Source: Nitrosospira briensis
GTDB lineage: Bacteria > Pseudomonadota > Gammaproteobacteria > Burkholderiales > Nitrosomonadaceae
Length of the DNA stretch: 64,000 bases
Assembly: GCF_900115125.1 (NCBI RefSeq)
Contig: NZ_FOVJ01000001.1
Span: forward strand, 1 to 64,000
Reading direction: 5' to 3'
Shown here: in pieces, positions 13,670-16,630 of the stretch
Numbering within the stretch: the first letter of the stretch is position 1
How the letters are laid out: every line of letters starts with the position of its first letter
Notes under the pieces: model-generated
What the model saw: the letters and a program-made list of their open reading frames with translations, nothing else
Database searches by the model: none
What the model was told of the DNA's origin: nothing
Made by a program: the position numbers and the translations under genes

Positions 13670-14363
13670 GGAGAGACTTCAGGTTTTCTTGATTCGAAAT
13701 GTTTTTCGGATCGTTGCCTTGTTTCGCAATTGCCGTCGAGAAAGCTTCCAGCATTGGATGAATTGTTTTCCGCTTCAATTTCAACGCCGCCTGGTTAATG
13801 ACCAGCCGCGCCGAAATTGGTGTGATCTCTTCCACTGCCTTCAGACTGTTGGCCCTCAGCGTGTTACCGCTTGAAACCAGGTCCACGATTGCGTCGGCCA
13901 ATCCCACCAAAGGCGCAAGTTCCATTGAGCCGTAGAGCTTGATGAGATCCACGTGCATGCCTTTTTCGGCGAAGTGTTCACGCGCTGTTTGCAGGTATTT
14001 GGTTGCGACGCGAAGCCGCGCACCGCGGCGCACCGCGGATTCATAATCAAAGTCGTCGCGCACGGCCACCATCATGCGGCAGCGCGCTATGTTCAAGTCG
14101 AGCGGCTGGTAAAGCCCCGCGCCACCATGTTCCAGCAATACGTCCTTTCCCGCGATGCCCATGTCCGCGGCCCCGTACTGTACGTACGTCGGCACATCCG
14201 ACGCCCTTACAATGATAAGCCGCACGTCATCGCGATTGGTCGTCAGGATCAGTTTGCGCGATGTTTCAGGATCATCTAGCGCGACGATACCCGCTGCTTT
14301 CAACAATGGTGCAGTATCGTCAAAAATGCGGCCCTTGGAAAGGGCGATTGTGATGCTAGTCAT
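13656..14363 (-). CDS. hisG: ATP phosphoribosyltransferase HisG, short form
   Basis: First committed step of histidine synthesis. The 235 residues carry the catalytic domain (SKGRIFDDT near the N-terminus, a [22 protein letters not shown] phosphate-binding region in the middle) but no C-terminal regulatory domain. This is the short form, which needs the HisZ subunit; no hisZ lies in this window. The last 20-25 residues are a hydrophilic extension beyond the family norm. It is the first gene of the his run. Confidence 0.96.
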
Positions 14364-14927
14364 GGAGGATTCTGCAAAGGCCTCATTTTAACCTAAAAGC
14401 GACAAGTCGAACTTACCCGGAAAACATTCAAGACGAATAATCCCCCGGGGAATTCAGGCTGGTGCATTAAAAATTTCGAGCCAACTGACGGATACCGAGC
14501 CATAAAAGGTTTCCGGCACCGGGAAAATATGAGGCGCGCGACGCCGGCGTGCGACTGGTACATGCAGACGCTTACTGTTGCCGAGTTGATGTGCTGCTCC
14601 TTCGTTGCCCTGGCATGGTCGGGGTCTCTACAGCTTTTACCGATCGGTGCGTGGATTTTTTTCGCTGAATTGTGCAAAAAGCATCACCAAGACAGTGAGT
14701 TACACACACTCTGATTTTGCATGTTTCGGTAGAACTTCAAGAGGAAAAAAGCCCTAATCCCGAGCAAAATAAGGAATTCACAATTACTTCACAAATTCAC
14801 CACATATTCTTCACACTTCATTTACGATACTTCCTCACAAATACTTCACATTTACTTCACACTTGCCACACAAATGCCGGAAAGTGAGTGAAGCGGGAGT
14901 AAGAATTCACAAAAATAGAAAGCGAAA
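14364..14927. other. Divergent intergenic region between hisG and an outer-membrane protein gene
   Basis: About 560 bp without a credible gene. The left part (14364-14700) must hold the promoter for the his run. The right part (14770-14870) holds an 11-bp-phased TTCACA array described separately. Small open frames exist on both strands (for example 14529-14714, plus) but have no Shine-Dalgarno and no recognisable family. Confidence 0.6.
14777..14861 (+). promoter_or_regulatory. 11-bp-phased TTCACA half-site array upstream of outer-membrane protein gene
   Basis: Exact TTCACA occurs at 14777, 14788, 14810, 14845 and 14856. In the same 11-bp phase are ACCACA at 14799 and TTTACG at 14821. After a 2-bp slip the register continues with CTCACA at 14834, then 14845 and 14856. 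A further TTCACA lies at 14906. Direct repeats of about 6-7 bp every 11 bp are the known layout of binding sites for OmpR/PhoB-family response regulators, whose dimers bind head-to-tail. The array ends about 67 bp before the start codon. The binding protein is not identified. Confidence 0.6.
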
Positions 14928-16058
14928 ATGAAAATGTCACTAAAGTTGGGAACAAATAACAGCGTTAATAAAAATTGGATAAGGGGTACAAAAAAACTTT
15001 TCGGTCTCTTTCTGTTCCTTGGCACCGCCTGTATGTCTTCTGCCGTACTGGCGAAAACAGACAGCGATCTTAGGAAGAAACTCGAAACCCTGGAAGCAAG
15101 GATTCTGGAGCTGGAAGCGCGTTTGGAGAGCAAAGGGGGGCAAGGGGAACAAAATACCGAAGGCACAAAGCACGGTGCCGGCAAGGAAAAATTACACGAT
15201 GCCGGGACGTTACAGTCTTCTGCTCCGCCTGCCCAAACGGACGATGAGTTCAAGAAGAAGCCGGAAGCCGCCGGAGCACGGGTTGCAAACGTGGAAGGAT
15301 CTGCGGCGGATGCAGGGTGGCAGGATGCCGATGGCGGAGGCCACGGTTTCGACAGGAAAAAATTTCACGGTGGCGTTACCTTAAAACAGGATGCGTTCTT
15401 TGGTTTCCAAACCATCCTCGATGGGGAATATGAAATTCGGGATAACATCGACTTTACTTTTTACAGCTGGCTGTGGACGAGTCCCAATTTTGGCCGCAGC
15501 CGTGTTGTTTCCGGTCCAAATGGTACTCAGGTCGATGCCGGCGGCAACGGGCTGTGGACCGAGGTCGGCATGGGTCTGAATTTCCACTTTTTCGACCATG
15601 CATTAAGTATCAATCCTCAGATAGGCATGCTGAATGGCGCCTTACTATCCAGCAGAATCGTCGGGAGGGGTATCCGGGCTGGGGAAGGCGTGGTGCCCAG
15701 TATGACGATCAATTACAATGACGACCATTTTACCGGGCAGGGGTATTTCGCCTACTATCTGGCTATTCGCGATGAGCGAGCCAGGGATTTCATCCATAAC
15801 TGGATCAGCCTAGGCGTTAAACCGGCCCTGTTAAATTTTAAAAATACGCCGGTCGCTTCGGTAGGCGTTCACTGGGAGCATCTGCGATTCCATAAAGACC
15901 GCATAGAAGGAAATACCGGCACGGTTTACAACTGGATAGGCCCCTACATTGAATTTGCGCTGCCTATGAGTCTTGCCCTGCGCTTCTCGGCTGGCGCTGA
16001 CCTGAAGGGAGACGTATCCAAGGAATTCTATCAAGCCAGCATCAAGCTTCATTTCTAA
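14928..16058 (+). CDS. Outer-membrane beta-barrel protein with N-terminal coiled coil (possibly DUF6733-like)
   Basis: 376 residues. A signal peptide ends near residue 42 (VLA-K). A short coiled coil follows (LRKKLETLEARILELEARL), then a low-complexity Gly/Ala/Glu linker up to about residue 145. The rest has alternating aromatic/hydrophobic strands typical of an outer-membrane barrel, and it ends in Phe, the usual C-terminal barrel signature. Phrases such as DFTFYSWLW, SINPQIGML and VGVHWEHLRF resemble the DUF6733 family as I remember it. Substrate and role are unknown. The upstream 11-bp repeat array suggests control by an OmpR/PhoB-type regulator. Confidence 0.7.
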   Translation: MKMSLKLGTNNSVNKNWIRGTKKLFGLFLFLGTACMSSAVLAKTDSDLRKKLETLEARILELEARLESKGGQGEQNTEGTKHGAGKEKLHDAGTLQSSAPPAQTDDEFKKKPEAAGARVANVEGSAADAGWQDADGGGHGFDRKKFHGGVTLKQDAFFGFQTILDGEYEIRDNIDFTFYSWLWTSPNFGRSRVVSGPNGTQVDAGGNGLWTEVGMGLNFHFFDHALSINPQIGMLNGALLSSRIVGRGIRAGEGVVPSMTINYNDDHFTGQGYFAYYLAIRDERARDFIHNWISLGVKPALLNFKNTPVASVGVHWEHLRFHKDRIEGNTGTVYNWIGPYIEFALPMSLALRFSAGADLKGDVSKEFYQASIKLHF

Positions 16059-16105
16059 AGCTGGAAGTGAGTCGGGATACCAAGATGCGGGAAAAGATAA
16101 ATTGT

Positions 16106-16630
16106 ATGACAAGCGCCGAGTTGCGCGCGACGATAGCAGAATTACGGCCGCAGGACGTGCGCGATCTGGTGGAGCGCGATCATGAGGTACTGGCGGCCCG
16201 GCAGGCTCGCAATTCCTTGACAGAGCAATTACGGCAGGCGGAGATGGACGTAAAGCAGGCGAAGCATCAGATGTACAGTTGGAGATCGGCTCACCCGTTG
16301 CTGGCCAGGCTTCATGATCTCGGGCTGATGCCGTCCCGATTTCTCGTCAAGTGCAACGAAATCCGGGCAGCAGCGGATACAGAGGCACTGAAGCTGGCAC
16401 CACGTGTACATGATGCGACGCAATATGCGAGAAATATAGAGAACGAGGTGGAATCTCGTGTCCGGCTGGAGCAGGCGCCCGTGCACGAGCACATAGCCGA
16501 GCTGGAGCGTCTTGAGCGTCAGAAGGTTATACGGGAACTGACCGAGCAGTGCCAGACACCGGAGAGGAACGATGTCCGATCTGCCGGGGAAACGCTTATG
16601 GAGTATCGGATGACAGCGCGTTCTCGATAG
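16106..16630 (+). CDS. Hypothetical coiled-coil protein
   Basis: No family recognised. The frame opens at GTG 16067; the ATG at 16106 is preferred because GGGAAAAG lies 9 nt upstream, giving 174 residues. The protein is highly charged and mostly helical: an Arg/Glu-rich N-terminal half (LRQAEMDVKQAKHQM), a short conserved-looking core HPLLARLHDLGLMPSRF, and a long C-terminal helix rich in Glu and Arg. No signal peptide or membrane segment. The layout vaguely recalls helical tails of mobilisation proteins, but this is speculation. It starts 47 bp after the outer-membrane protein and its 3' end overlaps the topoisomerase gene by 35 bp tail to tail. Confidence 0.55.
   Translation: MTSAELRATIAELRPQDVRDLVERDHEVLAARQARNSLTEQLRQAEMDVKQAKHQMYSWRSAHPLLARLHDLGLMPSRFLVKCNEIRAAADTEALKLAPRVHDATQYARNIENEVESRVRLEQAPVHEHIAELERLERQKVIRELTEQCQTPERNDVRSAGETLMEYRMTARSR

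Follow-up and report, generated by a model that had tools for sequence, protein, structure and literature searches.

A TTCACA direct-repeat array upstream of a DUF6733 gene in Nitrosospira briensis and its probable link to an OmpR-family two-component system

Known direct-repeat operators and their likeness to the array

At the PHO box of PhoB and the ompF-ompC sites of OmpR, half-sites lie head to tail at 10–11 bp, dimers bind cooperatively, arrays can hold several dimers, and the regulator acts as an activator at -35. The direct-repeat boxes of actinobacterial PhoP and RegX3, also OmpR-family regulators, are of the GTTCACC or TCACAG type with 11-bp spacing. CO2-concentrating genes and bicarbonate uptake in autotrophs are controlled by the LysR-type regulators CmpR, CbbR, and CcmR. 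For ColR of Pseudomonas putida, seven footprints yielded the consensus YYNA(C/G)NNYTTTTT(C/G)AC; the targets are mostly membrane proteins, and most tested promoters were activated, while oprQ and PP0737 were repressed (Kivistik 2009, PMC2689224). In the searched open-access literature, we found no described regulator of inorganic-carbon uptake or amo genes in ammonia-oxidizing bacteria and no carbon-related two-component system in Nitrosospira or Nitrosomonas.

The locus considered here belongs to a 64,000-nucleotide stretch of N. briensis DNA (the window) and carries an array of TTCACA half-sites. The ColR consensus contains TTNAC and TTCAC starting 11 bp apart, as the half-sites of the array do, its targets are likewise rich in outer-membrane and membrane proteins, and both activation and repression are reported for it. 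Half-site positions and spacing fit, but the ColR spacer is T-rich, whereas the spacer here is AT-rich and mixed. Only one ColR repeat is strongly conserved, while here both are near-perfect and form runs of 4 to 13, and the gene set comprises inorganic-carbon pumps, porins, and mini-proteins. PhoB and OmpR sites differ in half-site sequence and regulon content; unlike them, the last half-site here typically starts 11 bp before the -10 element, and at the DUF6733 gene the putative -10 lies within the array. PhoP/RegX3 boxes share TTCAC-like half-sites at 11 bp but come from an unrelated lineage and gene set. In contrast to the LysR-type control of carbon genes, the neighbor and likely regulator here is an OmpR-family two-component system. 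By analogy of sites and targets, the response regulator (RR) considered here would work like regulators of the ColR/PhoB type.

The array and its target gene

The array is flanked by hisG (minus strand, start at 14363) and the DUF6733 gene. The features of the locus are as follows:

14777–14826, plus strand: upstream half-site block, TTCACA 14777, TTCACA 14788, ACCACA 14799, TTCACA 14810, TTTACG 14821 (direct reading and chain search; kept in orthologues)
14826–14831, plus strand: putative -10 GATACT inside the array, with no good -35 (alignment of 10 orthologous promoters)
14834–14872, plus strand: downstream half-site block after a 13-bp step, CTCACA 14834, TTCACA 14845, TTCACA 14856, CACACA 14867 (weak) (direct reading and chain search)
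14928–16058, likely start 14934, plus strand: DUF6733 target gene, whose protein has a signal sequence, a coiled coil of short length, and a C-terminal domain predicted to be rich in strands, with Phe as last residue (Pfam PF20507, E=1.9e-58; ortholog alignment; AF2 model)

Five half-sites are exact and three are near copies, followed by the weak one at the array end. The register is 11 bp throughout, save for the single 13-bp step from 14821 to 14834, which agrees with the five exact and several near copies and the 2-bp slip described in an earlier note on this DNA. TRF also recovered the array (14777–14861, period 11, 7.5 copies). One more exact TTCACA, at 14906, is off the phase.

The window contains 11 matches to TTCACA-N5-TTCACA with up to two mismatches against 4.06 expected, a number reached by none of 100 shuffles, and seven of these matches fall inside the array. 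All four 11-bp triplets in the window (up to two mismatches) are within it, while four triplets were obtained in none of 2,000 local dinucleotide shuffles, and any triplet at all in none of 40 whole-window shuffles. Such arrays are therefore not common by chance, a question raised by the earlier note, and the shuffles together with conservation rule out a chance repeat. The layout of at least two head-to-tail half-sites 10–11 bp apart is that of OmpR/PhoB-family operators. The CRP/FNR-type inverted repeat TGTGA-N6-TCACA was not found, since all half-sites are on one strand and the reverse strand has no array. CTGTCAT-type PHO-box half-sites were also absent, the half-site being T T C A C A at 77%–99% per position, in line with the earlier remark that it is unlike the classic PHO box. 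The array is very likely functional.

The second ATG (14934) is the probable start of the DUF6733 gene because its context is common to orthologues. The AlphaFold model showed about 12 strands at low confidence (mean pLDDT 41) and was therefore kept out of fold searches. Since this model is too poor to use, the assignment of the protein as an outer-membrane barrel is no more than likely; thus, the earlier prediction of a beta-barrel gene with a coiled coil held for the gene and the coiled coil, which is short, and only as a likelihood for the barrel. DUF6733 had no description in the searched open-access literature. A coiled-coil-rich open reading frame follows the gene at 16067–16630, and a resembling one is apparently located on the opposite strand near the DUF6733 gene in three other genomes (G001, G007, and G019).

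Ten DUF6733 copies were identified in 9 of the 23 genomes of the genus. All ten, including a second copy of G005 at another locus, have a TTCACA array upstream, as the earlier note had proposed to check, and each array outscores all of its 200 shuffles. The phase is constant among these promoters, while the spacers and the number of units vary. The arrays also contain a hexamer, mostly directly after a half-site position, which is TATACT in seven copies, GATACT in G020 and the host (G000), and TATAAT in G001. This hexamer is likely the -10 element, the host version GATACT being weak. A sigma-70 scan of the window revealed no convincing promoter and did not report the putative GATACT element.

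Distribution of the arrays and their targets

Triplet arrays were present in 21 of the 23 genomes of the genus, whereas the reversed control pattern gave a handful of matches in all. At the level of the family, arrays with at most one mismatch were found in 73 of 120 Nitrosomonadaceae genomes. The half-site derived from 61 distinct arrays of the genus was T(77)T(94)C(78)A(99)C(96)A(97) (percentages), with an AT-rich mixed 5-bp spacer and usually four half-sites per array. Judged by these motifs, the array at 14777–14872 is part of a predicted genus- and family-wide regulon.

Other arrays of the host genome are located upstream of a BBP2 porin gene (L070), a 35-aa single-pass membrane open reading frame (L068), a 26-aa membrane open reading frame followed by amoC (L069), and open reading frames of 65 and 138 aa (L066 and L067). 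A family of 38–43-aa proteins (MKTENMKPENSKDES...LTLLGVLAGLMGLAS) was observed about 90–105 bp after the array start at seven loci (L073, L076–L078, L080, L083, and L092), with good Shine-Dalgarno sites, arrays over the core promoter, and four paralogues in G014. A Pfam scan of one of these proteins gave no convincing match. At two Nitrosomonas loci (L164 and L166), arrays of four half-sites precede an apparent old-yellow-enzyme-type oxidoreductase gene, and the Nitrosomonas regulon would therefore extend past carbon uptake.

In five genomes, including the host (L069, 3' end G000:C13:357443–357923; L088, L219, L244, and L268), an array with a 26–29-aa single-pass membrane open reading frame is located 220–345 bp upstream of a divergent stand-alone amoC. 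Co-transcription is uncertain, since at L088 a terminator-like stem was read between the small open reading frame and amoC. The amoCAB-type copies that were examined have no array, and the idea that the RR controls the amoCAB operon was dropped, the divergent stand-alone amoC of these five genomes being the only one with an array.

Candidate regulator and its neighborhood

A survey for OmpR/PhoB-type regulators with Pfam PF00486 (Trans_reg_C) revealed only two such proteins in the host, PhoB (L108) and the RR of a hemE-RR-HK locus (L109), an OmpR-family protein of 227 aa encoded at G000:C11:54389–55069. The host genome thus contains a candidate cognate winged-helix RR linked to the sites. NCBIfam gave no equivalog above the cut-off for this RR, among solved structures the nearest are generic regulators of the OmpR family, and its closest plasmid-borne relatives share 62% (Burkholderia) and 47% (Pseudomonas). 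The searched open-access literature contained no description of this regulator or of its gene set.

Unrelated carbon systems were found behind hemE-RR-HK: DabA/DabB, SbtA with the P-II-like SbtB, SulP with Usp, or a carbonic-anhydrase-like protein with NDH-like subunits (Pfam matches DabA 8e-213, Sbt_1 4e-110, P-II, Sulfate_transp, and CsoSCA_cat). The regulatory locus stays in place, with unrelated carbon transporters substituted for one another behind it. In the scanned named genomes of Nitrosospira, Nitrosovibrio, and Nitrosomonas, a carbon gene followed RR-HK at 53 of the 67 loci with enough sequence, while marine Nitrosomonas have RR-HK without an adjoining carbon gene. The intervals between HK and the carbon gene contained at least two TTCACA-type half-sites at 11 bp in 53 of 60 cases, although these loci, being related, are not independent cases. 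Control spacings of 7–10 and 12–16 bp gave 0–3 cases, and the other strand one. In a typical interval, TTCACGAATTCTTCACATTTCCTATGTTAACG, exactly 11 bp separate the start of the last half-site from the -10-like TATGTT. The pattern was thus found near a response-regulator gene, where the earlier note had proposed to look, and these boxes and the orthologous arrays support the OmpR/PhoB-family layout it had recognized.

At four loci (L140, L147, L148, and L158), a 372-aa protein with weak similarity to carboxysomal carbonic anhydrase is encoded downstream of RR-HK and adjoins genes for NDH-like subunits (NuoL/NuoM), which lie on the opposite strand; together they could possibly form an energized CO2-hydration complex.

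The RR and the arrays tend to co-occur: among near-complete genomes, arrays were found in 62 of 85 with the RR and in 1 of 14 without it (Fisher p=4e-6), and within Nitrosomonas (genus g3) in 47 of 61 versus 0 of 9 (p=1e-5), these p-values being optimistic in that they ignore shared ancestry, since the absence of the RR in Nitrosomonas seems to stem from only a few independent losses. The RR-less g3 genomes mostly resemble one another in their AmoC proteins and may form one clade, and g4 is a separate lineage. Arrays without a detected RR occurred in G013 (260 contigs, 93% complete) and G047 (51% complete), the RR-like match of G117 is truncated at a contig edge, and some RR-positive genomes (e.g., G016 and G045) lack strong triplet arrays. 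DUF6733 genes are also present in three RR-less Nitrosomonas genomes (G077, G081, and G090; loci L376, L377, and L378), where a TTGACC-N17-TATAAA-like promoter replaces the array.

Based on these sequence comparisons, we consider it quite probable that the array is the operator through which a single OmpR/PhoB-family regulator, the RR of hemE-RR-HK, acts on the DUF6733 gene. It is unlikely that a regulator of another type, or several regulators, would bind the TTCACA direct repeats, with the RR linked to them by hitch-hiking. RR loss is mainly confined to a few lineages and the survey covered Trans_reg_C proteins, which leaves room for this explanation; on the other hand, OmpR-family winged helices typically use such an 11-bp head-to-tail layout, the boxes lie directly behind the RR-HK pair at 53 of 60 loci, and the natural experiment of arrayless DUF6733 genes in RR-less genomes fits the RR. 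Even less probable is binding by PhoB, with the array as a variant PHO box and DUF6733 as a phosphate-regulon gene. PhoB-type proteins do bind direct repeats of 11 bp, and the host encodes a PhoB-PhoR pair, but the half-site is not CTGTCAT, the boxes adjoin the other RR-HK pair and carbon genes, and RR-less Nitrosomonas retain 4–8 other Trans_reg_C proteins, PhoB-like ones included, without arrays, so that the co-occurrence of RR and arrays disfavors PhoB. The phosphate, osmotic, or copper control considered in the earlier note finds no support, given the same retention of PhoB-like proteins and a gene neighborhood pointing to inorganic carbon. A functionless low-complexity or tandem-duplication repeat is very improbable, since despite the AT-rich intergenic DNA and the ease with which small repeats grow and shrink (unit number does vary among orthologues), the half-sites are kept while spacers diverge, the phase persists over many genomes, and the distance to promoter elements is fixed, which already contradicts such a repeat.

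Promoter geometry and proposed mode of action

We infer the binding of the hemE-RR-HK regulator, the sign of its effect, and its signal as follows. Phosphorylated RR dimers would bind head to tail on TTCACA pairs 11 bp apart and then spread over the array; cooperative binding of several dimers is plausible.

At genes for carbon transporters and BBP2 porins, the half-sites are upstream, and the last one mostly lies 11 bp before an ATGTTA-type -10. Because of this typical distance, the RR probably stands in for a -35 element and activates these promoters. TTGACA-like hexamers are concentrated 16–18 bp ahead of the first half-site, where 24 of 61 arrays have one (15 of them at exactly 17 bp), and are few elsewhere. 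At promoters of mini-membrane-protein genes, a consensus TTGACA-N17-TATTCT core lies under the array, and the RR therefore probably acts there as a repressor. The DUF6733 promoter has half-sites on both sides of its putative -10: activation may come from the upstream block, and at high levels of RR-phosphate the downstream one may have a damping or repressing effect.

In ammonia-oxidizing bacteria, the RR appears to control genes for bicarbonate/CO2 uptake, for proteins of the outer membrane, and for numerous tiny membrane proteins. Such a regulon seems to adjust the uptake of inorganic carbon and the permeability of the envelope. Because many targets have no known carbon link, the case for a carbon signal comes from gene neighborhood. 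As a tentative model, which we hold with less than even confidence, one OmpR-type two-component system could be the inorganic-carbon sensor of ammonia-oxidizing Nitrosomonadaceae, controlling whichever non-homologous pump stands behind it (SbtA, DabA, SulP, or carbonic anhydrase with NDH) plus outer-membrane barrels, a family of mini-membrane proteins, and, in some Nitrosospira, stand-alone amoC, while long arrays with an embedded promoter, such as that of DUF6733, would respond non-monotonically to RR-phosphate. What the analysis offers for testing is a defined operator with its promoter geometry, a list of targets, and named candidates for the regulator and the sensor.

At L096 and L104, the distance from the last half-site to the -10 of the SulP gene is 16 bp. 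On the minus strand of L094, L101, and L104, which points away from the SulP gene, eight half-sites were observed as two quartets separated by an 8-bp slip.
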